From a virus, in IMG/VR virus record IMGVR_UViG_3300008450_006804, positions 1 through 33,238 of that record: a stretch of 33,238 nt of DNA; one strand, given 5' to 3'. Below are positions 2 to 26,771 of this stretch, piece after piece (the first letter of the stretch is position 1; each line of letters starts with the position of its first letter). The position numbers and the translations under genes were made by a program. Below the pieces are notes generated by a model. The model had not been told where the DNA came from. It did not search any database and saw only the letters and a list, made by a program, of their open reading frames with translations.

Positions 2-3000
2 AGTGATGATCCATGGGGACCACAAGGTAACTTTGCTGGTGACAAGCACGTTGATGTTGGCGGTGTCACTATGAAAATAATTCAAGTGGGTGATATAGTC
101 AAGTACCTTGGCCAGAAAGCGGAAGTTGTTGCCTTGTCTAAAGATCGTAAACGTGCCCGAATCACAATTCAAAAAGGCATGGGCGGTATCACAAAAGATG
201 TCAACACCAGTGATCTAAACCAATTTGGTCAAGGTGTGGAGGAAGGCTTGGCTCAAGACGAGTCTGAACAAAGTCATGGTTGGGTTGCTGATTCCATTGA
301 CGAAATAAACTATAACACATTTGAAGTTCATCTTACAAATACACGCAGTGGTGAATCTGCTGACTTAGTTATTCGCCCAGTGGACATGATGCGTATCAGT
401 GGAAAACTACAGATAGAAACTATAGATGTTCGTGATCTCGCAACAGGTGACACTCAAAGTTGGACCACTGAAATGCCCGACCCCCAAGGTGCTATTGTAG
501 ATGCCATCGATGCTTTGTTCTGGGACAATCCGCAACTGAATAAAAAACTATACGCTATTATAGATGCTCATAGTAAAAAAGGCCAAGACATGCTTCCTGG
601 GCAAAAAAATAGAGCTAAGGTAGGCATGGCTGCTCCAGCAGATCAGTTCATAGCTGGTCAAGATGCTATTGCCAAAGCCAAAGGCACTGTAAAAGAATTT
701 GATGCCCAGGGCTTTCAACAACGATATACACTATACAAAGATGGCTACGAAATAGAAAAATTTGGCGACATGGATGATGCCATAGAATATGCTGAAGATG
801 ATCGCAGAGACGGAGACGATCCCTTGGCAGTGTACAAAATTGTAGATATCAACAAACAAGTTGTTTGGGATAGCAATCCTTACGAAAAGCCATCGCGCAT
901 ACAGTTGAGAAAACCAGAGCAAGGTGTGGCGGAGGCAGTTCATCCAGATGTAGTGTCTAAAGAATATTTCAATGACCCCACTCGAAATGTTAGAATGGGC
1001 GACTTTGAGTTCAATGCCCGAACATTCACTGGCGCAATGGCGGACCCAAACGCAAGGGGTTTACAGATTAGAGCATATGATCCCAAACGTCCAAAAGGTC
1101 AAAATTTAGTCGGCTCATCAGACTTCATTGTGAAATCTGATAAAAAAGGCAATCAATGGTTAGAAAGTGATGATGTTGAAGTAAATGACGAATACAGAAG
1201 CAAAGGTGTTGCAACCATGATGTATGCTTTTGCTAAAAGTTTAGGCAATGACATCAAGGCTAGCCCATACCAAAGCAAGGCCGGTTCTGACATGTGGAAG
1301 AAGTGGGGTAGTGATGCCAAATATCTTGTAGGTGAGCAAGGTGTGGCGGAAGGCTTGGAAAACTTCTTGCCGAACGATGTAAAGATTGCAATCAATTTCA
1401 ACAGTAAAGATCCTGTAGCCGGCCTTGGAAAAATTTGGGAAATTGTCCAGGATGGTAAAATTCGTTTTTATTTAAGCAATGGACACAGAGATGCACTCAA
1501 CAAACTTCTGTCAAAGCCCATCGCTTCCAAAGAAGATTGGAACCTGTTAAAGAAACAAATGAAAAATGTACTGGTTAGACAGCAAGGTGTGGCGGAAGGA
1601 GTGAATGATACCGTCTATCCCAACGCAGAAGTAATCAAAAGCAAGAATGGCCGGCCAGTGGGTGAGATTTACCAAGATGGTAACAGTTGGGGGTGCTTCC
1701 ATTATCGAGCAGACCGTGGCTACGATATGATTGACAGCAGAGAAGATGCCATTCAAGCACTGAAAGACTTACACGCTGAAACAGGTCGCAGTGGTCCAGA
1801 CTACACCTTCAAAGGTGTGGCAGAAGGCTCAACAGATGATCCTCGTTTCCAAAAGATGATGGGCAACATACAGCAATCTACTCCCAACCCAGTTGGTGGA
1901 TATGTGGCAGTCAGCTATGCCAGTGAACGACCTTCAAAAAAAATCAAAGGTGTTACATACAACGGTAAACCAATGCCCAGCACTGTTGATCCTGAAGGAT
2001 TTGCAAGCAGTAAAATAAAATTCACACCTGATCAAATTGAAGCAAAACTAGCAGGAATTGGCCAAAAATACGGGTGGGACTCAATTGATCCAGGACACGG
2101 CCAAGGCTACGACGAATTGTATTTTGATACCAGTACCAAATATACATCAGCTACGCAACGCAAACTTGCTACAAACATAGTCAAGACTGTTAACGAAATT
2201 AATAAATTCTTCAATGACATAAACAGAAGCTTACAAGCCACAGGATTGCCAGGATACAAAGTAAATGTATGGCAAGGTATGGGAGAAAATGGCAACATAA
2301 ATCAATATGAAGATCTATCTCATATTACTAATATTGCCAAGGGCCAGACAGCGAAGCCTGATGCCGGTCCGGCCATTGGTAAAATGATCCTCAAGCACTT
2401 ACCAAGTTACGAAGCCGAAAAAGATGAATTAGGATATGATTCACAAGATTTTCAAGATGCCAGAAATATTGCAAATATTTACATCACCAAAGGCGAACGT
2501 GCCGGGCTCCAAGCACAGCATGATTATGACGAAGTTAGTGATATGATTGACGAATTGCTAAGTGATGCTGGTGGTGATGATTTAAGAACTATTTGGGACC
2601 TTGACGAGCAAGGTGTGGCAGAAGGCTCCGAGTGGGAAACAAGACACGATGAGTTTGTTACAGTGGGTGATAGAGCAACTCCTGAACAGATAAACAAAAT
2701 TGTCAGTGCTTTAGGTGTTGCTGCTAAACAGGCCAGCAGCAAGCGTGGATTTCTAAATCAAATTGTTGGCAAGCAGTCGAATGGTGATTTAGCACGAATG
2801 GCACATGGTGCTGAAACACTGGCAAAGAACATACAACGAAATAGAAATGCTAAACTTGGAACAGACGAAAGAAAAGAACTTGGTCAACATTTGGTTTATG
2901 CTGTGAGTTTGTTGAAAAGAATAAGTGGCGAGCATGGTGTAGAGGAAGCACAGCTCGACGAAAAGTGTTGGGACACACATCGTCAAGCCGGTATGAAAAA

Positions 3001-4015
3001 GAAAGGCAACCGCATGGTGCCTAACTGTGTGCCCAAAGAAAGCATCGAGGAGATGGCCGGCAAAACAAATCCTGATGCAGTTCGTAGAATACAACAACTG
3101 CTTAATAAGAAATTTGACGCTAATTTAGACATTGATGGGATATTAGGACCGTTGACTTTAAAAAGCATAAAGAAATTTCTACCAAAATCCTCAGAGAAGC
3201 AAGCTCCGAATCCTGAAAAAACAACGGCTGTTCAAGGTAAACAAGTAAAAGAAGAAAAATGTCCACATTGCGGTGGCGAGATGGTCAGCGAAGAACTGAT
3301 CAATGAAAAGAAAGATTCTTGCTACTATAAAGTAAAGAGTCGTTATAAAGTTTGGCCCAGTGCTTATGCAAGTGGTGCTTTAGTTAAGTGCCGTAAAAAA
3401 GGCGCAAAGAACTGGGGTAATAAATCAGAAGATGTGGCAGAAGGCTTGAACGAAATGGATAAAACACAAACTCCGCCAGGACGAGATGGTGATATCGATT
3501 GGACTAAGAAACAAATACACTTGGGCCCAGAGCACACAATGAAAGCCAAAGATGTTGCCAAACACGCTCTAAAGATATTAAACAAGACAATGAAAAAGAG
3601 TCATGCCGATACACCGAAGAAGAAAGGTGTGGCGGAAGAACAGCTTGATGAAAAATGGAGTCAAAAATACAAAGACAGTATTAATTGTAGCAACCCCAAA
3701 GGCTTCAGTCAGAAGGCTCATTGCGCCGGCGAAAAGAAAAATGAAGACATTGTCGAAGGCAAAGAATATTATACAGTAACAGGCACCGACTCAGTGTCAT
3801 TGCGTAGAGATTTTAATATGGCCAAAGATCGCAATGGCTGGTATCTTAAAGAAGGCGCTACACCTAAACAAAAATTAGAAGCATTCCGAGCATTTGGTAG
3901 TCCAAAATTAAAAGAATTTAATCTAGCTGCATTCAGTGGCGGTACTCAGACCAAAGGTGAGGACAATGTTATCAGTCCCGTGGGATCACAGACCAGAGCT
4001 CAATACAAAAAATGA
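2..4015 (+). CDS. Giant modular protein (5'-partial), candidate virion polyprotein
   Basis: The frame is open from base 2, with no ribosome binding site before the ATG at 71, so the true start probably lies left of the window. Residue numbers here count from that ATG (1314 aa). Unrelated modules are separated by a recurring QGVAEG-like linker, with its Glu at residues 58, 288, 427, 509, 585, 851, 959, 1124, 1189 and 1229. Recognisable pieces are a GNAT acetyltransferase-like module (about 300-420, RSKGVATMMYAFAKSLG), a peptidoglycan-binding-like helical repeat (about 999-1037, DGILGPLTLKSIKKF), a CPHC zinc-ribbon-like pair (C1064, C1067) and three short basic Cys peptides near the C-terminus. 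The linker (hydrophobic-x-Glu then Gly/Ala) resembles the cleavage rule of T4-type prohead proteases, so processing inside the capsid is possible; that is inference. No overall function is recognised. Confidence 0.75.
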   Translation, partial: SDDPWGPQGNFAGDKHVDVGGVTMKIIQVGDIVKYLGQKAEVVALSKDRKRARITIQKGMGGITKDVNTSDLNQFGQGVEEGLAQDESEQSHGWVADSIDEINYNTFEVHLTNTRSGESADLVIRPVDMMRISGKLQIETIDVRDLATGDTQSWTTEMPDPQGAIVDAIDALFWDNPQLNKKLYAIIDAHSKKGQDMLPGQKNRAKVGMAAPADQFIAGQDAIAKAKGTVKEFDAQGFQQRYTLYKDGYEIEKFGDMDDAIEYAEDDRRDGDDPLAVYKIVDINKQVVWDSNPYEKPSRIQLRKPEQGVAEAVHPDVVSKEYFNDPTRNVRMGDFEFNARTFTGAMADPNARGLQIRAYDPKRPKGQNLVGSSDFIVKSDKKGNQWLESDDVEVNDEYRSKGVATMMYAFAKSLGNDIKASPYQSKAGSDMWKKWGSDAKYLVGEQGVAEGLENFLPNDVKIAINFNSKDPVAGLGKIWEIVQDGKIRFYLSNGHRDALNKLLSKPIASKEDWNLLKKQMKNVLVRQQGVAEGVNDTVYPNAEVIKSKNGRPVGEIYQDGNSWGCFHYRADRGYDMIDSREDAIQALKDLHAETGRSGPDYTFKGVAEGSTDDPRFQKMMGNIQQSTPNPVGGYVAVSYASERPSKKIKGVTYNGKPMPSTVDPEGFASSKIKFTPDQIEAKLAGIGQKYGWDSIDPGHGQGYDELYFDTSTKYTSATQRKLATNIVKTVNEINKFFNDINRSLQATGLPGYKVNVWQGMGENGNINQYEDLSHITNIAKGQTAKPDAGPAIGKMILKHLPSYEAEKDELGYDSQDFQDARNIANIYITKGERAGLQAQHDYDEVSDMIDELLSDAGGDDLRTIWDLDEQGVAEGSEWETRHDEFVTVGDRATPEQINKIVSALGVAAKQASSKRGFLNQIVGKQSNGDLARMAHGAETLAKNIQRNRNAKLGTDERKELGQHLVYAVSLLKRISGEHGVEEAQLDEKCWDTHRQAGMKKKGNRMVPNCVPKESIEEMAGKTNPDAVRRIQQLLNKKFDANLDIDGILGPLTLKSIKKFLPKSSEKQAPNPEKTTAVQGKQVKEEKCPHCGGEMVSEELINEKKDSCYYKVKSRYKVWPSAYASGALVKCRKKGAKNWGNKSEDVAEGLNEMDKTQTPPGRDGDIDWTKKQIHLGPEHTMKAKDVAKHALKILNKTMKKSHADTPKKKGVAEEQLDEKWSQKYKDSINCSNPKGFSQKAHCAGEKKNEDIVEGKEYYTVTGTDSVSLRRDFNMAKDRNGWYLKEGATPKQKLEAFRAFGSPKLKEFNLAAFSGGTQTKGEDNVISPVGSQTRAQYKK
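230..3760 (+). repeat. Ten interspersed GVAE-G linker repeats
   Basis: The linker codons lie at 230-247, 920-937, 1337-1354, 1583-1600, 1811-1828, 2609-2626, 2933-2950, 3431-3445, 3623-3640 and 3749-3760. The core at DNA level is GGTGTGGCGGAAGGC with few changes. Gly is always GGT where present and Val is GTG in all but one of those copies. The copies separate modules of about 40 to 266 residues that do not resemble each other. The last copy (IVEG) and the one at 3431 (DVAEG) are degenerate. Confidence 0.85.
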
Positions 4016-4440
4016 GAAACTTAATCAATATCATGGAAGCTGTCAATAAAGGGTGTCCTGTGGCCACTCATAATATTGATGTGAATTTAAAAAATAGACA
4101 GGCCGCTATAGACAAGTATAATTACGGACCAGCTAATCCTGACAAGCCCGATGACTACTGGAATAAATCTGCTAAAATTTTTAATGTAACACCTGCTACT
4201 GCAAAGACTATGCTTTGTGGTAATTGTGCAGCATTTGACGTCAGTGACAGTATGCGTGACTGTATTGCCGATGGCATCAAAGGGTCAGAAAAAAATGTAG
4301 ACGCAAATGCCAGCATAAATTTAAGTGATCTAGGATATTGCAATTTTTTACATTTTAAATGTGCAGGTAGCAGAAGTTGTAAATCTTGGATCACAGGCGG
4401 CCCTATAACGGAAAAAGACAAAGGAAAAAAGGCGGATTAA
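4012..4440 (+). CDS. Cys-rich protein, HiPIP-like
   Basis: 142 aa, starting inside the last codons of the giant protein gene (ATGA overlap). Cysteines fall at 69, 72, 84, 110, 117 and 123. The CGNCAAF and GYCNF segments recall high-potential iron-sulfur proteins (CxNCxxF and GxCxxW), although the spacing between the third and fourth cysteine is longer than in true HiPIPs. It may bind an Fe-S cluster or zinc. There is no signal peptide or membrane segment. It precedes an iron-binding Dps-like gene by one base. I recognise it only as a type of Cys-rich protein seen in marine T4-like phages; the function is unknown. Confidence 0.7.
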   Translation: MRNLINIMEAVNKGCPVATHNIDVNLKNRQAAIDKYNYGPANPDKPDDYWNKSAKIFNVTPATAKTMLCGNCAAFDVSDSMRDCIADGIKGSEKNVDANASINLSDLGYCNFLHFKCAGSRSCKSWITGGPITEKDKGKKAD

Positions 4441-4441
4441 A

Positions 4442-4876
4442 ATGGATGAATTAATTAAAGCAATGAAAATTGCATTTGCAACAGAATTTAGTTTCTATCT
4501 TAAAGCACATTTCTATCACTGGAATGTAGAAGGACCTGACTTCCAAGAATATCATAGTTTGTTTGGCGGTATCTACGAAGAAGTATATGGCAGCATTGAT
4601 AATTTTGCTGAGAACATCCGTAAGCTAGGCAGTTATACTCCAGGTAGCTATACTCGCTTTAGTATGCTATCGCAGGTCAATGACGAAATTGAAGTGCAAC
4701 CTGCTATGACGATGATTCAAGAATTGTTGTCAGACAGCGACAAAGCTTCAAAACTATTTAAAATGGTTTACGACTTAGCTGAACGTGAAGGCAAACACGG
4801 TATCAGTAACTTTTTAGCAGAACGTATGGACGCACACGACAAACATAGTTGGATGTTGAGAGCCAGTCTAAAATAA
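4442..4876 (+). CDS. Dps-like ferritin family protein
   Basis: 144 aa, a little shorter than typical Dps (about 160-170). Dps proteins form 12-subunit cages that oxidise and store iron and can bind DNA. Aligned by spacing to the E. coli ferroxidase ligands (H51, H63, D67, D78, E82), this protein has H26, H38, G42, D53 and E57, so four ligands fit and the Asp67 position is Gly. The HWNVEGPDF segment is the family signature. There is no long basic N-terminal tail, so DNA binding by the usual route is unclear. It sits between a Cys-rich protein and a diiron desaturase. Confidence 0.85.
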   Translation: MDELIKAMKIAFATEFSFYLKAHFYHWNVEGPDFQEYHSLFGGIYEEVYGSIDNFAENIRKLGSYTPGSYTRFSMLSQVNDEIEVQPAMTMIQELLSDSDKASKLFKMVYDLAEREGKHGISNFLAERMDAHDKHSWMLRASLK

Positions 4877-7647: not shown

Positions 7648-7934
7648 ACGATTTGTTGTATAATACCTTTGCATGGATTCGTGATGACTGGCGTAGTAAT
7701 CGCTTCCGTTTTACTGTTGAGTTGCTTGCTTGGTCTATTAGTATTGGGTGTTCTATTACTATGGCAGCCACAGTCCCGAATCCCCCTTTACTTGCGTTGT
7801 ATCCTATTTGGATTCTTGGCTGCTCTATGTATGCTTGGGCTGCTTACACTAGGAAGTCGTTTGGTATGCTGGCTAACTACATCTTGCTAACTACCATAGA
7901 TACTGTTGGACTAATAAGGATGATCACAAATTGA
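7644..7934 (+). CDS. Small three-helix membrane protein
   Basis: 96 aa read from a TTG codon that overlaps the preceding TGA (TTGA junction). Three hydrophobic segments lie at about 23-42, 47-66 and 73-92, after an N-terminal region rich in Asp and Arg ([14 protein letters not shown]). No enzyme motif is visible. It ends with another TTGA junction into frr, so the three genes 7381-8491 are translationally coupled. Function unknown; a loose resemblance to PnuC-type transporters is too weak to assign. Confidence 0.65.
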
Positions 7935-8491
7935 GCTACAATGATATTAAATCACAAACTGAATCTAAGATGTCCAAAGGTATTGATTCATTCAAATCAA
8001 CAATTAGTAAGGTCCGTACAGGAAGAGCCAGTACTAGTCTATTAGAACATCTCCTAGTAGATTACTACGGTAACCCTACTCTTATTAGTCAAGTGGCTAG
8101 CTTAACATTGGTTGATGCCAGAACCATTTCGGTTACTCCCTGGGAAAAAACTATGCTAGTACCTGTAGAAAAGGCTATCAGAGAATCCAATCTAGGACTT
8201 AATCCGTTAAACAAAGGCACAGTTATTCTTGTGCCGTTGCCGGCATTATCAGAAGAACGGCGAAATGAAATGATAAAAATTGTTAAATCCAATGGAGAAG
8301 ATGCTAAAATAGCTATTCGTAATCACAGACGTGATGCCAATGAGCAATTAAAAAAATTATCTAAGGCCAAGGAAATCACTGAAGATCAAGAAAAACAGGG
8401 CCAAGCTCATGTACAAAAATTAACAGATCGATTTATTGTAGAGATTGATCATTTGGTTAATACCAAAGAAAAAGAATTACTTAAAATTTAA
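7931..8491 (+). CDS. frr: Ribosome recycling factor
   Basis: 186 aa, the full length of bacterial RRF (about 185). RRF works with EF-G to split the post-termination ribosome. Signatures are [14 protein letters not shown] (about residues 28-41), the [15 protein letters not shown] strand region, [29 protein letters not shown] and [13 protein letters not shown], in the correct order for both the three-helix bundle and the inserted domain. No key region is missing. It starts at TTG overlapping the previous stop. The [11 protein letters not shown] and [13 protein letters not shown] stretches resemble betaproteobacterial RRFs as I recall them. RRF is rare in phages; it may keep translation running after host takeover. 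Confidence 0.95.
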
Positions 8492-12188: not shown

Positions 12189-12920
12189 ATGAAAGACCAC
12201 CTATTAGACATCGTGCAACATACTCATGGACTGGGAGTTATTGACCTAGTTAAGATTGTAGGCACAGAAAATGAAACCATACTAGAAGCAATTGCAGAAA
12301 ATCGCAGTGTTATTCTACAAGCTAAATTTAAAGGACCAATTGCAGAATTTGTTGGTACTTTTGGAATGCCAAATTTGGGCAAGTTAAACACTGTGCTTAA
12401 TATTCCAGAGTATAAAGAAAATGCAGTTATCACTGTCAGCACTCAAGATAAAAACGGAGAAGCTGTTCCAGTGGGTGTTCATTTTGAGAATAAGTCGGGA
12501 GACTTCAAAAACGACTATCGTTTTATGAGCGCTGAAATTGTCAATGATAAACTTAAAACTGTTCGTATGAAGCAAGTTGCATGGAACATCGACATCGTTC
12601 CCAGTGCAGCCAGTATTCAACGTCTTAAATTTCAAGCCAGTGCAAACAGCGAAGAAAACAATTTCATTGCTAAAACAGAAAACAGTGACTTAAAATTTTA
12701 CTTCGGTGACCACAGCAGTCACGCAGGTAATTTTGTTTTCCAGTCTGGGGTCAGCGGCAAATTATCTAAAGCGTGGGCATGGCCTGTTGCAGTGGTCATC
12801 AGCATTCTTAGCTTGCCCGGTGACAAGACTTTTAAAATCAGTGACGAAGGTGCGGCAATGATCACTGTAGACAGCGGTATTGCAGAGTACAACTATATTC
12901 TACCAGCACAGACCAAGTAA
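12189..12920 (+). CDS. 45: DNA polymerase sliding clamp (gp45-like)
   Basis: 243 aa, close to T4 gp45 (228 aa). In T4 the trimeric clamp tethers the polymerase and also activates late transcription with gp33 and gp55. Supporting segments are FVGTFGMPNLGKLNTVLNIP in the first domain and the C-terminal AAMITVDSGIAEYNYILPA, the usual end of phage clamps. The ribosome binding site is GGAGA nine bases upstream. The stop codon overlaps the start of the DpdA-like gene (TAATG), so the two are coupled. Confidence 0.85.
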   Translation: MKDHLLDIVQHTHGLGVIDLVKIVGTENETILEAIAENRSVILQAKFKGPIAEFVGTFGMPNLGKLNTVLNIPEYKENAVITVSTQDKNGEAVPVGVHFENKSGDFKNDYRFMSAEIVNDKLKTVRMKQVAWNIDIVPSAASIQRLKFQASANSEENNFIAKTENSDLKFYFGDHSSHAGNFVFQSGVSGKLSKAWAWPVAVVISILSLPGDKTFKISDEGAAMITVDSGIAEYNYILPAQTK

Positions 12921-14482
12921 TGGCGACCTACGACGATTTAACTAGTAAACAAAAAGACTATGCAGTCTTTTTGCCTGCTCTAAGCAGTTTTTATAGTAGG
13001 GATGTTAGTAAACAAAGACTTGATCCCAACTACATAGACCCTGCTCGTGTGCCTGCAAAGTTTGAAAATGGCATCGAAGGTATGAACTGGTTAAACAGCC
13101 AGCAAGGTTACTTTACCTATAAGTGGAGTTTATATTCCGCAGGACACGCAGACTTAGACGTTAACAAGCCACCGGGCAGAGATGACATGGTTCGTAATCG
13201 CGACCCTAATACATTCATTCTCGGAGACAGCGGCGGATTCCAAATTGGCAAAGGTGTATGGGAAGGCGATTGGAAAAATCCTGCTTGTCCCAAAGCACAA
13301 AAAAAGCGTGAACAAGTTTTATCTTGGATGGACGCTTATATGGATCGAGGCATGATTCTTGATATTCCTGCTTGGGTTGCACGGAGTCCAGCTGGACAAA
13401 AGGCTACAGGAATCAACACTTACATTGAGGCAGTACAAGGTACATATATCAATAACGATTATTTTATGAAGAATCGTACCGGACGCTGTAAGTTCTTAAA
13501 CGTTCTACAAGGCGAAAATCATACTGAAGCAGACGACTGGTATGATCGTATGAAAAAGTATTGCGACCCAAAACAGTACAGTCAACCATTTGAAGGTTGG
13601 GCCATGGGTGGTCAAAATATGTGCGATGTGCATTTGCTGTTACGCAGGCTAGTTGCTCTACGATTTGACGGTCTACTTGAACCGGGACTGCACGATTGGA
13701 TGCACTTTCTGGGCACAAGTAAATTAGAATGGGCCACTTTGTTAACTGACGTACAAAGAGCCATTCGTAAATATCATAATGAAAACTTTACTATTAGCTT
13801 TGATTGTGCAAGTCCTTTCCTTGCAACTGCTAACGGTCAAATTTACTACAATGTAACCACAGAGGACCGTAGCAAGTGGAGTTACCATATGCAAGCCAGT
13901 GTGGATAATAAAAAATACTCCACTGATACTCGATCATTCCGAGATGCCATCTTGCAAGATGGCATCATGGATACTTTCTTAGAAAGTCCTTACAGTGAAC
14001 GTATGACTATCAAAGACGTTTGTATTTACAAACCCGGAGACTTAAATAAAATTGGTAAAGAAGGTCGTACATCCTGGGATAGCTTTAGTTACACGTTGCA
14101 AATGGGACATAATGTGTGGACACACATACATGCAGTTCAGGAAGCTAATCGACAATACGATGCAGGAAATTATCCCGAAATGTTAGTATCAAGCACTGCC
14201 GACAAAAAGAATTTCAGACAGTATGATCGTAACTTTTTTAGGGATATTGTCAATGATATATTTGCTACCAGTGATAAAGGTAAAGCGGAAAGTCTTATTG
14301 AACATTACAACAAATATTGGATGAACATTGTGGGAACTCGAGGAGCAGTGGGTAAGAAAACTGTTAATGCCGGGACTATGTTTAATACTTTATTTGAAAT
14401 GGAAGACTTAGATTTATATCATCGCGACGACAGTGGATTAGACGAATCTAAATTAGACGAATTGGAGGCCGACAATGTATAA
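12920..14482 (+). CDS. dpdA: DpdA-like 7-deazaguanine DNA transglycosylase
   Basis: 520 aa. It has tRNA-guanine transglycosylase (TGT) family hallmarks: D103-S-G-G-F-Q108 for base binding, LQGEN at Q197-G198, A228-M-G-G-Q232, and FDCASP with D295 at the nucleophile position (compare FDCVxPTR of TGT). It is longer than bacterial TGT (about 375 aa) and lacks the C-terminal zinc site, as phage DpdA enzymes do. DpdA swaps guanine in DNA for preQ0 or a related 7-deazaguanine, which blocks restriction. Genes folE, queD and queE in this window supply the precursor. Queuosine tRNA modification is the alternative, but length and context favour DNA. A perfect 24-bp palindrome lies inside (13943-13966). 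Confidence 0.85.
   Translation: MATYDDLTSKQKDYAVFLPALSSFYSRDVSKQRLDPNYIDPARVPAKFENGIEGMNWLNSQQGYFTYKWSLYSAGHADLDVNKPPGRDDMVRNRDPNTFILGDSGGFQIGKGVWEGDWKNPACPKAQKKREQVLSWMDAYMDRGMILDIPAWVARSPAGQKATGINTYIEAVQGTYINNDYFMKNRTGRCKFLNVLQGENHTEADDWYDRMKKYCDPKQYSQPFEGWAMGGQNMCDVHLLLRRLVALRFDGLLEPGLHDWMHFLGTSKLEWATLLTDVQRAIRKYHNENFTISFDCASPFLATANGQIYYNVTTEDRSKWSYHMQASVDNKKYSTDTRSFRDAILQDGIMDTFLESPYSERMTIKDVCIYKPGDLNKIGKEGRTSWDSFSYTLQMGHNVWTHIHAVQEANRQYDAGNYPEMLVSSTADKKNFRQYDRNFFRDIVNDIFATSDKGKAESLIEHYNKYWMNIVGTRGAVGKKTVNAGTMFNTLFEMEDLDLYHRDDSGLDESKLDELEADNV
13943..13966. repeat. Perfect 24-bp palindrome inside dpdA
   Basis: GATGCCATCTTG (13943-13954) is followed directly by its exact reverse complement (13955-13966). 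It encodes part of RDAILQDGIMD. By chance a 24-base perfect palindrome is expected about 0.002 times in a window of this size, so it may be a binding or recombination site, or a strong RNA hairpin in the message. Confidence 0.9.
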
Positions 14483-20504: not shown

Positions 20505-21251
20505 ATGACACAAAAAGAAACAGGTTTAGATGCTATGGCAGGTGATGGCGGTTATCGAGAAGAAAAATATCTAGGTAACTATCTTCGAGCTAAAATGAAG
20601 CGAGACGGAAAACGATTCTGGGCCGGTGATAACATTAGTGACTATCTGCACGACAGCGACAAAGAGCACTTAATTAACGAAGCAACAGAAGCTTTTGAAC
20701 TAGTATTGGATCGGTTACTTATCGACCGTGAAACTGATCCTAATAGCAAAGGCACAGCAAGGCGACTTGCAAAAATGTATTTTAATGAAATAATGGCAGG
20801 CCGATATGAATCGCCTCCAGATTGTACAGCATTTCCAAATGACAGTGAGGATAGATATGAAGGCATGTTGGTTGTTCGTAGTGAGTTGCGTAGTATGTGT
20901 AGTCATCATCACCAACCCGTTGCTGGCGTTGCTTATATTGGCATTATTGCCGCTGAGAAACTTATTGGCTTATCGAAGTACACACGTATCGCGCAGTGGT
21001 GTGCAAGACGAGGTACTCTCCAGGAGGAACTTTGTAATGATATTGCTAGGGAAATTCAAAAGGCCACGGGTGCAAAAGATGTAGGTGTTTACATACAAGC
21101 AACTCATGGTTGTTGCGAAAATCGTGGCATCATGGCACATAGCTCGCTGACTCAGACTACTGTGCTCAAAGGTGCTTTTAAGGACGATCCTGGCACTAAG
21201 AAAGAGTTTTTCGACAATATTAAACTACAACAGGACTTTGCACCCCGATAA
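20505..21251 (+). CDS. folE: GTP cyclohydrolase I
   Basis: 248 aa. FolE converts GTP to dihydroneopterin triphosphate, the first step of 7-deazaguanine (and folate) synthesis. Zinc and active-site residues are present: C132-S-H134-H135, GLSKYTRIAQWCARR, and H201-G-C203-C204 with CENRGI following. The N-terminal extension of about 60 residues includes FWAGDNISDYL. With queD, queE and dpdA in the same window it most likely feeds preQ0-type DNA modification rather than folate. It starts one base after the preceding stop. Confidence 0.95.
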   Translation: MTQKETGLDAMAGDGGYREEKYLGNYLRAKMKRDGKRFWAGDNISDYLHDSDKEHLINEATEAFELVLDRLLIDRETDPNSKGTARRLAKMYFNEIMAGRYESPPDCTAFPNDSEDRYEGMLVVRSELRSMCSHHHQPVAGVAYIGIIAAEKLIGLSKYTRIAQWCARRGTLQEELCNDIAREIQKATGAKDVGVYIQATHGCCENRGIMAHSSLTQTTVLKGAFKDDPGTKKEFFDNIKLQQDFAPR

Positions 21252-24063: not shown

Positions 24064-24570
24064 ATGGCAAATCTACAACCCGTACTTTACAAGTACACAT
24101 CAACAAAAGAATATCACGACGCTTTTCCTTGTGCTTACAGACAATGGCGTGCGGATAGTCACTGTAATTTAATTCACGGTTACAGTTTTTCAATGAAGTT
24201 TTATTTTGGCACCGACGATTTAGATGTCCGTAACTGGGCAGCGGACTACGGTGGATTAAAAGAACTTAAAAAGACATTAGAAGATCAATTTGATCATACG
24301 CTTATCGTAGCACAAGATGACCCAGACATGGAGACATTTAAATTGTTACAGGAAAAGAATATGGCTAAGATTGTTGTATTACCCAAGCTAGGCTGTGAGG
24401 GACTTAGTGACATGCTCTACAAGTATGTCAATGGCGTTTATATCCCAGAGATGTGGGGACCAGGCGAAGCTGCACGTTTGTGGTGCTATCGTGTTGAAGT
24501 TCGCGAAACACAAAGCAACATGGCGTATCGCGAAGGCCACCGTGAATGGAACGAAGACCTATTTGCATAA
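24064..24570 (+). CDS. queD: 6-carboxytetrahydropterin synthase (QueD-like)
   Basis: 168 aa, AAGGAG at 24051-24056 before the ATG. QueD turns dihydroneopterin triphosphate into 6-carboxytetrahydropterin. Visible are H18 (first zinc His), C34 (catalytic Cys), H38-G-Y40 and the catalytic F-D77-H78. In E. coli QueD the segment is HGH, so the third zinc His is Tyr here; some phage and bacterial relatives have this HGY form. The length is above E. coli QueD (about 120). It feeds QueE, 1.3 kb downstream, and has a riboswitch-like leader. Confidence 0.9.
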   Translation: MANLQPVLYKYTSTKEYHDAFPCAYRQWRADSHCNLIHGYSFSMKFYFGTDDLDVRNWAADYGGLKELKKTLEDQFDHTLIVAQDDPDMETFKLLQEKNMAKIVVLPKLGCEGLSDMLYKYVNGVYIPEMWGPGEAARLWCYRVEVRETQSNMAYREGHREWNEDLFA

Positions 24571-25026: not shown

Positions 25027-25903
25027 AGATATCAGATGGTTACACGTAGAAGCTAGTAGTAAGTGCAATGCATGGTGTCCATCTTGTCCGAGAAATGTTA
25101 GCGGACACGGATTGTATCCGAATCTAACAGAACAAGATTTAGATTTATCAGTATTAAAAAAAACTGTAGAAGCGTTGCCTAACTTATATGCAGTACAGTT
25201 TTGCGGAAATCATGGAGATCCGTGTGCTGCTAAATCATTCTTAGATATGATCGATATAGTTAAATTGCATGTTAAAAAAATTCAAATACATACCAACGGT
25301 AGTATTAGAAATCAGCAATGGTGGGAAAAGTTAGCGCATAAGCTAGCCGATATCGAACATGATGTATGGTTTGGCATAGACGGATTAGCGGGTACACACG
25401 AATTATATAGGCAAGGGACTAGCTGGAATAAGATCATCGAAAATGCTACAACATTTATCGATAATGGAGGTTTCGCTACATGGCAGTTTATAACATTTAA
25501 ACACAACGAGCACCAAATAAAAGATTGCTTAAAGTTAAGTCAAAAATTAAAATTCAAAAAATTTAAATTAATAAAATCATTTAGACGAACAGAAGAAGCA
25601 AAAGATTATGTTTCAGGAAAATCATATATAACACTGGAGCCTTCCTCAGTGCTTATAAAATCAATTAAAAATCTTACTAAGAGCTCGTCGGTCAGGAAAG
25701 AAAATTGTATGCATATGAGTCAACCTAGTATATATTTAGATTCTATGGGATCCTATAGTTATTGTTGCTATTATACTTCAAATTGGGCATCGAACAAAAT
25801 AAAATTTGACTCTTTGAAAGATATTTTTTATAATACAGTAGATATAACAAGCAGTCAATGCGTTAACTCATGCGGATCATCATATGAAACTCAAAGTCAG
25901 TGA
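25016..25903 (+). CDS. Radical SAM protein next to queE
   Basis: 295 aa from ATG 25016, which overlaps the MazG-like stop by 11 bases; an ATG at 24977 is also possible. The [4Fe-4S] motif is C17xxxC21xxC24 (KCNAWCPSCPRN), with FCGNHGDP in the place of the GGE motif and IQIHTNGS after it. C-terminal cysteines (ENCMHMS, YCCYYTS, QCVNSCGSS) suggest a SPASM-like auxiliary cluster. The substrate is unknown. Its 20-base overlap with queE makes a role in 7-deazaguanine chemistry plausible. Confidence 0.85.
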   Translation: MLAEDIRWLHVEASSKCNAWCPSCPRNVSGHGLYPNLTEQDLDLSVLKKTVEALPNLYAVQFCGNHGDPCAAKSFLDMIDIVKLHVKKIQIHTNGSIRNQQWWEKLAHKLADIEHDVWFGIDGLAGTHELYRQGTSWNKIIENATTFIDNGGFATWQFITFKHNEHQIKDCLKLSQKLKFKKFKLIKSFRRTEEAKDYVSGKSYITLEPSSVLIKSIKNLTKSSSVRKENCMHMSQPSIYLDSMGSYSYCCYYTSNWASNKIKFDSLKDIFYNTVDITSSQCVNSCGSSYETQSQ

Positions 25904-26771
25904 ACTTTTCTATTCAGCACAAGGCGAAGGACGTTTTGTCGGAGTCCCCAGTGTATTCCTTCGAACCTTCGGGTGCAATTTTACTTGCAGTGGGTTTGGG
26001 TGTGCTCCGGGAGTTAAAAGCACTGAAGCAGATGATGTTGCAAAAAATGTTCATTTATACAAAGATTTTAACAGTCTCCCGCTAGTCAATACTGGGTGTG
26101 ACAGTTATGCAAGTTGGCATCCAGCTTTTAAAGAACTAAGCCCAACCATTGACACTAATCAACTAGTAGACAGTATGTTAAAACTTACACCCAATAACAA
26201 ATGGATTCAAGATAACGGGAACGATGTACATCTTGTTATCACCGGAGGAGAACCTTTATTGGGATGGCAACGTGCCTACGAAGAATTATTAAGCAATCCT
26301 AATATGTTAGATTTGCAAAATTTAACATTTGAAACAAACGGTACTCAAAAACTACTGCCATCATTTAGACAATATTTACTTAATTGGACATTAAATTCTA
26401 AATTAAATTCTAAAGGTGATCGTAGAACTAGTAACAATCTTACGTTTAGTGTCAGTGCTAAGTTAAGTGCCAGCGGTGAACGATGGGAAGATGCTATTTG
26501 CCCTGATATTGTAGCCAGCTATCAAGAATTAGGATATACCTATCTCAAATTTGTTGTGGAAACAGATGAGCATTTTGCCGAAGTAGATCGGGCAGTAAAA
26601 GAATTTAGAACTGGCGGATTTAAAGGTTCTGTATATGTAATGCCTCAAGGCGGTGTTGTTACTCCTTACGAAAAAAATCGTGTAAGAGTCGCCGATTGGG
26701 CTTGTAGTAAAGGTTACTATTACAGCCCGCGACTGCACGTCGATCTGTGGGGTAATGGGTGGGGCAAATGA
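25884..26771 (+). CDS. queE: 7-carboxy-7-deazaguanine synthase
   Basis: 295 aa, longer than most QueE (about 210-250). This radical SAM enzyme makes 7-carboxy-7-deazaguanine from 6-carboxytetrahydropterin. The N-terminal SAQGEGRFVGVPSVFLR is the QueE signature, then FGC31NFTC35. The usual third cysteine two residues later is F38; C40 or C72 (NTGCDSYASW) must serve instead. VITGGEPLL, FETNGT and FSVSAKLSASGE follow correctly, and the C-terminal PRLHVDLWGN matches QueE ends. A 12-base tandem repeat lies at 26391-26414. The stop overlaps the next start. Confidence 0.92.
   Translation: MKLKVSELFYSAQGEGRFVGVPSVFLRTFGCNFTCSGFGCAPGVKSTEADDVAKNVHLYKDFNSLPLVNTGCDSYASWHPAFKELSPTIDTNQLVDSMLKLTPNNKWIQDNGNDVHLVITGGEPLLGWQRAYEELLSNPNMLDLQNLTFETNGTQKLLPSFRQYLLNWTLNSKLNSKGDRRTSNNLTFSVSAKLSASGERWEDAICPDIVASYQELGYTYLKFVVETDEHFAEVDRAVKEFRTGGFKGSVYVMPQGGVVTPYEKNRVRVADWACSKGYYYSPRLHVDLWGNGWGK
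26391..26414 (+). repeat. 12-bp perfect tandem repeat inside queE
   Basis: TTAAATTCTAAA occurs twice head to tail (26391-26402 and 26403-26414), encoding LNSKLNSK. It probably reflects replication slippage and lies in the insertion that makes this QueE long. Confidence 0.85.

Follow-up and report, generated by a model that had tools for sequence, protein, structure and literature searches.

Why should a virus gene join a series of largely unrelated protein modules in one chain by short, almost identical linkers? This question is raised by the open reading frame (ORF) at 2-4015 (+ strand, 5' end open) of IMG/VR virus record IMGVR_UViG_3300008450_006804; the stretch analysed, positions 1 to 33,238 of that record, is a 33.2-kb virus fragment (G000), called here the window. 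A sequence-only reading had proposed a capsid polyprotein that is packaged as one chain, cut at GVAE-G sites by a prohead protease of the T4 gp21 type and released as internal effectors. The packaged and protease-released chain has gained from the co-occurrence of gp21 and gp23, targeting-like N-termini, the constraint on the P1 Glu, equivalent linkers in cyanophages and a homolog detected in virions (PMC10665884), while the effector part has been borne out only in part. We give a probability of about 0.7 to the reading that the gene, from an uncultured T4-like myovirus, encodes a polyprotein of the head interior, an exchangeable array of modules freed by the prohead protease; cleavage at the linkers, the position inside the head and the functions of the modules are what we infer.

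In the proposed mechanism, the N-terminal peptide would send the chain to the prohead core, and a gp21-type protease would cut after Glu during head maturation, at the QGVAE/G linkers and a few L/I-x-E sites (a slash marks the expected cut). About 13 small proteins, many of them basic, would be left in the head with the DNA, and by analogy with T4 their injection into the host is probable. The near-identical in-frame linker repeats would serve as recombination seams, and phages would therefore acquire, lose and trade modules as cassettes.

The same gene is complete, with 100% identity, in contig L123, where it encodes a protein of 1566 aa starting MNLFDIFESNEQ. The L123 protein has 229 residues upstream of nt 2, so that the window ORF begins at its residue 230, and the ATG at nt 71 was rejected as the start because the identical L123 gene begins far upstream. 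Counted from nt 2, the linker Glu residues are E81, E311, E450, E532, E608, E874, E982, E1147, E1212 and E1252; the cuts previously placed at E58, E288, E427, E509, E585 and E851 are the same sites as those found, numbered from the nt-71 ATG and not from the true start. The ten linkers claimed between modules are present as ten [VI]-x-E/[GAE] sites, far above chance in shuffles: the motif [GDSN][VI][AEVD]E[GA] occurs nine times in the ORF, against a mean of 0.14 and a maximum of 2 in 2000 protein shuffles. A further three boundaries, QLDE/K twice and LINE/K once, belong to this type and flank Cys-rich basic peptides. That the modules are unrelated is generally true, except that the full-length gene has two GNAT-like modules. 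The features are as follows.

2..4015, +, gene of the modular polyprotein, cut off at its 5' end by the window; complete in L123 (1566 aa, N-terminus MNLFDIFE/S)
2..244, +, module 2, C-terminal part; in L123 the upstream part of the module scores above the Pfam cut-off as a GNAT domain
233..247, +, linker GVEE/G
245..934, +, module 3, acidic (charge about -17), function unassigned
923..937, +, linker GVAE/A
935..1351, +, module 4, GNAT-like acetyltransferase fold (predicted)
1340..1354, +, linker GVAE/G
1352..1597, +, module 5, basic
1586..1600, +, linker GVAE/G
1598..1825, +, module 6, present in L122 and L124 too
1814..1828, +, linker GVAE/G
1826..2623, +, module 7, conserved, 266 aa; linker-bounded exchanged block of ~818 bp (L125 and L126)
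2612..2626, +, linker GVAE/G
2624..2947, +, module 8, basic
2936..2965, +, double linker GVEE/A, then QLDE/K
2963..3307, +, module 10, Cys-rich peptide KCWDTH..NCVPK followed by a weakly peptidoglycan-binding-like part and CPHCGG
3296..3310, +, linker LINE/K (L/I-x-E type)
3308..3442, +, module 11, YKVWPSAYASGALVKCRK..NWGNKSE, a basic Cys peptide with a homolog in S-CREM2 gp160 (virion protein)
3431..3445, +, linker DVAE/G
3443..3637, +, module 12, basic
3626..3655, +, double linker GVAE/E, then QLDE/K
3653..3757, +, module 14, short Cys peptide
3746..3760, +, linker DIVE/G
3758..4012, +, module 15, basic, C-terminal (..SPVGS..), recurs as last module in relatives
4012..4440, +, next gene, overlaps the polyprotein stop (ATGA); capsid-targeting-like start MRNLINIME/AV, homolog in L330

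If the linkers are protease sites, which of their residues are kept? Among 155 one-residue variants of QGVAEG, the P1 Glu is altered in 2 and the P3 Val in 5 (all to Met), and changes at P4, P2, P5 and P1' number 9, 17, 57 and 65, respectively. As judged from these variants, the profile is hydrophobic-x-Glu and appears close to L/I-X-E, the motif of T4 gp21 (PMC9026906). Homology breakpoints between polyproteins lie near [LIVMF]-x-E at 290 of 581 ends versus 123 at random, while hydrophobic-x-D, used as a control, is near 28 ends versus 48 at random. Alignments tend to continue through a shared linker, which accounts for some of this excess; the control, together with an excess that also appears at sites lacking V and lying apart from V[AE]E, limits that share. 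Of 35 copies of the YKVWPSAYASG module, 33 have a Glu precisely at their start, and the downstream border reads SVEEG, GVEEA, SILEG, DVAEG or SMAEG in many copies. The corresponding borders of the T4-GC 119 proteins of isolated cyanophages use IEE/G, LDE/K, VSE/A and LNE/K. Since varied Glu linkers occupy equivalent borders, the site class has been kept while the sequence has changed.

The head genes expected for such processing have been found in relatives. Nine of 30 linker- or module-bearing contigs carry gp21 (PF03420), and the same nine carry gp23 (PF07068); these include seven contigs of 167-357 kb, and the remaining contigs may be fragments. The gp21-like protease anticipated by the sequence-only reading thus exists in linker-bearing relatives as the Peptidase_S77 type, and the anticipated motif in the capsid protein is seen in the gp23 propeptide of these genomes, which ends L-x-E/[NST]A[ST]AG or similar. 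In G031, the longest of the relatives identified through DNA polymerase (PolB, 86% identity), the core protein, gp21, gp22 and gp23 genes lie at 190-194 kb and the linkers at 302-308 kb.

The N-termini of the polyproteins resemble those of known head-targeted proteins. T4 internal proteins have 10-19-residue propeptides with a capsid targeting sequence (PMC9026906), and the full-length copy of the window gene has a hydrophobic-x-Glu propeptide of 8 residues, slightly under this range. The G031 polyprotein stands in a gene row with the starts MYAHELYE/A, MKSLDFLNE/G, MSDIRRLLE/S, MTNMRKLLE/A and MKLFDFFE/S, and consecutive genes with targeting-like N-termini are found also in L329. In G033, the gene after the polyprotein starts MRNYIQIME/A and is homologous to the gene that begins at 4012 in the window. 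Over all loci, 57 of 93 polyproteins have targeting-like starts, as against 299 of the 1115 other ORFs found there (p=3e-11); in controls of this N-terminal pattern, D and Q were not enriched and K was weakly enriched. T4-type late promoters (ATAAATA) near two polyprotein genes were not used as evidence, because none is near gp23 or the L123 gene.

Virion data are available for a cultured relative. The virion proteome of the Synechococcus phage S-CREM2, obtained by mass spectrometry, includes gp160 and gp137 (PMC10665884, Table 3). The former is built from three modules that have homologs in the full-length gene; the latter has the same genome position as T4-GC 119. A match to PHROG 727 was obtained with E=9.8e-27 for the window ORF and 1.7e-39 for the full-length copy. 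Virion-detected non-structural proteins of S-CREM2 start MKDFDSFLEE, MKDLHSFLTE, VKRFDAFLTE, MQTFSMFFSE and MKNFSSFLTEA. When the N-terminal pattern is strict, 6 of the 7 S-CREM2 genes that match it are virion-detected (p=4e-4), and with a loose pattern (hydrophobic-x-E at positions 6-14) the association is not significant (p=0.06). As a side observation, the Cas9-annotated, virion-detected gp12 of S-CREM2 (OR473000; L198:7704-10313) has a capsid-targeting-like RFASFMAE/A near its N-terminus, and the virion S-adenosylmethionine (SAM) hydrolase, kinase and cytidylyltransferase of this phage have N-termini similar to that segment.

Do the linkers act only as peptides? Conservation of their DNA and exchange of cassettes, both missed by the sequence-only reading, are evident. 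At loci chosen by protein patterns containing no linker, the linker Ala is GCG in 39 of 45 cases versus 8% elsewhere in the same ORFs, and the linker Val is GTG in 39 of 45 versus 23%. This synonymous freeze of linker codons is not required by selection on the peptide. DNA blocks common to otherwise unrelated polyprotein genes end within 20 nt of linkers in 57 of 155 cases versus 8 at random and start there in 63 of 169 versus 9, counts that are not all independent because some contigs are near-duplicates. Examples are a linker-bounded block of 507 bp with 99.8% identity in L079 and L127, and the block of the window's module 7, 818 bp with 90.5% identity in L123 and L125, with linkers at both ends. 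Linker-bounded cassettes are exchanged between polyprotein genes. We lean slightly towards a short DNA repeat with two roles, prohead-protease site and recombination seam, that would be widespread in T4-like large phages and would make the gene an integron-analogous, exchangeable cassette array of head-internal proteins, translated as one polyprotein and taken apart when the head matures.

The freeze beyond the needs of peptide selection and the direct evidence of linker-bounded exchange also speak for an alternative, in which the chain stays whole as a multidomain virion or injected protein and GVAEG is a recombination scar or a flexible joint; polyvalent proteins indeed hold 2-15 domains per chain (PMC5512222). 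We consider it unlikely, as the P1 Glu and a hydrophobic P3 are retained while P5 and P1' drift, and hydrophobic-x-E is kept in unrelated linkers at equivalent boundaries, including those of cyanophages with other DNA; the co-occurrence of gp21 and the targeting-like N-termini also argue against it. Our tests address the class of the motif and not the enzyme, so that the modules might be cut at the linkers by another protease of the host or the phage, or be packaged in one piece and cut after injection. A P3 Val in place of the L/I of T4 gp21 (PMC9026906) would suit such an enzyme, but the same genomes have gp21 and an L-x-E propeptide end in gp23, the polyprotein scans showed no peptidase family, and this alternative is quite improbable. 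A structural protein of the tail, neck or baseplate, in which short joints recur, is the least probable: the cyanophage homolog (S-SM2, RN05-S) does sit between terminase genes, beside tail-fibre-like genes, and 'structural protein' labels come without a location, but targeting-like N-termini in the cluster, wholesale module swaps between phages and enzyme-like modules (e.g., GNAT, sigma-70 region 4) speak against it.

Several observations weigh against a head-internal polyprotein freed by the prohead protease. S-CREM2 gp160 was detected by 7 peptides with 13% coverage, by which the cleavage sites are not resolved, and no peptide ending at a linker was observed. The commonest linker has V at P3, where T4 gp21 prefers L/I (PMC9026906), and 36 of 93 polyproteins fail the targeting-like N-terminal pattern in the relaxed test. 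The window fragment itself has neither gp21 nor gp23; the gp21-like protease expected earlier has been found in the relatives. The frozen linker DNA could partly result from recombination alone, and recent common descent limits the independence of the linkers counted. No such polyprotein was found among the examined proteins detected by virion mass spectrometry in the cultured jumbo relative PA5oct, whose gp23 is about 64% identical and which has scattered targeting-like starts, e.g., MKKVFE/A; because it has such starts and no polyprotein, we regard PA5oct as neutral.

How widely is this design spread among viruses? A scan of viral contigs with the DNA motif GARCAAGGTGTGGCNGARGG matched at least 119 stretches. 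In the fetched stretches, all 135 of 135 matches are in frame and read EQGVAEG inside open frames, and the same DNA pattern gave 18 matches in 257 Gb of bacterial and archaeal genomes, where ~7.5 are expected at equal base frequencies (an estimate). Chance or an artefact as the origin was rejected in view of the many independent contigs, the in-frame-only matches and the near-chance level in bacteria. Among the stretches fetched, about 100 non-redundant virus ORFs have at least two strict GVAE-like linkers, and splitting them at linkers yielded 439 modules (>=25 aa) in 184 similarity clusters, mostly singletons; the cluster counts are rough because compound modules merge groups, single-linkage clustering having fused 172 modules into one cluster via such modules. 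No T4 or Escherichia coli phage was among the organisms matched by tblastn, and neither GVAEG in this sense nor any account of such polyproteins was found in the literature searched.

What do the arrays carry? The GNAT-like module of the sequence-only reading is supported by the predicted fold of module 4 (predicted template-modelling score, pTM, 0.74; 37 PDB matches at E<=0.001, the top-ranked listed being N-acetyltransferases) and by a profile match; in the full-length gene, a second GNAT lying upstream exceeds the Pfam cut-off. The peptidoglycan-binding-like part is represented by a sub-threshold Pfam match (PF01471, E=0.0017, 18.9 versus 23 bits). Basic modules are common in the window gene. 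For module 7, the predicted structure has low confidence (pTM 0.51), and no convincing PDB match was obtained. Pfam matches of the window ORF to PBP-Tp47_c and YkcB_C were set aside as weak and chance-like. Arrays in relatives hold sigma-70 region 4 (E=1e-17), cytidylyltransferase, GP88, LysM, DUF6321 and DUF5661; the sigma-70 region 4 module of L330:1543-5208 (contig 3300017917_001562; Pfam E=1.2e-17) may serve, within its array, as a factor for taking over transcription. Effectors are suggested for a minority of the modules, by the GNAT fold in the window gene and by the sigma-70 region 4 and cytidylyltransferase modules in relatives. Profile scans of the polyproteins reported no peptidase family, and no zincin was among the matches. 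Basic Cys modules in L116, L016 and L091 match DUF5872 (sub-threshold) and DUF6321; DUF5872 has been named also in work on a eukaryotic algal virus (PMC12085832), and giant viruses may therefore have these peptides as well.

Other genes nearby were noted. A Dps/ferritin-like gene (window 4442-4876; Pfam Ferritin E=2e-21) adjoins the polyprotein cluster and is the same neighbour in G031 and G033. The gene upstream of the L123 polyprotein (L123:310-3063) encodes 917 aa with LysM, is Pro/Ala-rich and starts MSDIKKLLE/I, and is a candidate head-targeted protein, while L329:12634-15246 combines a cytidylyltransferase domain with a cytidine/dCMP deaminase domain in a protein that begins MYAHELYE/A. 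By eye, the window genes at 12920-14482, 20505-21251, 24064-24570 and 25884-26771 resemble tRNA-guanine transglycosylase/DpdA, FolE, QueD and QueE, which suggests a possible 7-deazaguanine DNA modification, and the gene at 7931-8491 is a candidate ribosome recycling factor homolog, again by eye.

If the proposed reading is true, it would represent a new way of loading a varied protein set into a phage head by a single targeting step. A linker repeat that is both protease site and seam would explain a fast change of this set. Because linkers mark module borders, a large unannotated pool of candidate injected proteins, for anti-defence or host take-over, can be listed. A functional hypothesis is also provided for cyanophage T4-GC 119 / PHROG 727, annotated as 'unknown function'.

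Which known systems does this resemble? The ejection proteins of phiKZ and SPN3US are likewise head-internal and cut after Glu by a gp21-related protease (PMC5694885), but with an S/A-x-E or A-x-E motif and for removal of a propeptide (PMC5694885), whereas here many modules would be freed from one chain. Polyvalent proteins also unite disparate domains in one chain, with predicted delivery with DNA and proposed processing (PMC5512222); the processing is assigned there to zincin-like metallopeptidases (PMC5512222), and here to the prohead protease at linkers, no zincin having been reported in our scans. T4-GC 119 / PHROG 727 (S-SM2 SSM2_109) has homologous C-terminal modules and the same hydrophobic-x-E-joined design, with diverse linkers (IEE/G, LDE/K, LNE/K) in contrast to the near-identical QGVAE/G DNA repeat here, and no reading of it as a polyprotein was found in the literature searched. 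The T4 proteins IPI, IPII, IPIII and Alt share a short propeptide ending in hydrophobic-x-E, the presence of the gp21, gp22 and gp23 head genes in the phage, and many small basic products that vary between phages; the T4 internal proteins (IPs) are basic (PMC9026906), and injected T4 IPs block the type IV restriction system GmrSD (PMC12373910), an example that suggests an anti-defence role for the modules by analogy. Each T4 internal protein has its own gene and one N-terminal cut, while at least a dozen modules per chain with internal sites are found here; the ten GVAE-type linkers plus the L/I-x-E boundaries do not fit the T4-type arrangement of a single N-terminal cut and one protein per gene. 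The array would be a variation on the T4 internal-protein theme in which DNA-conserved linkers act as recombination seams.

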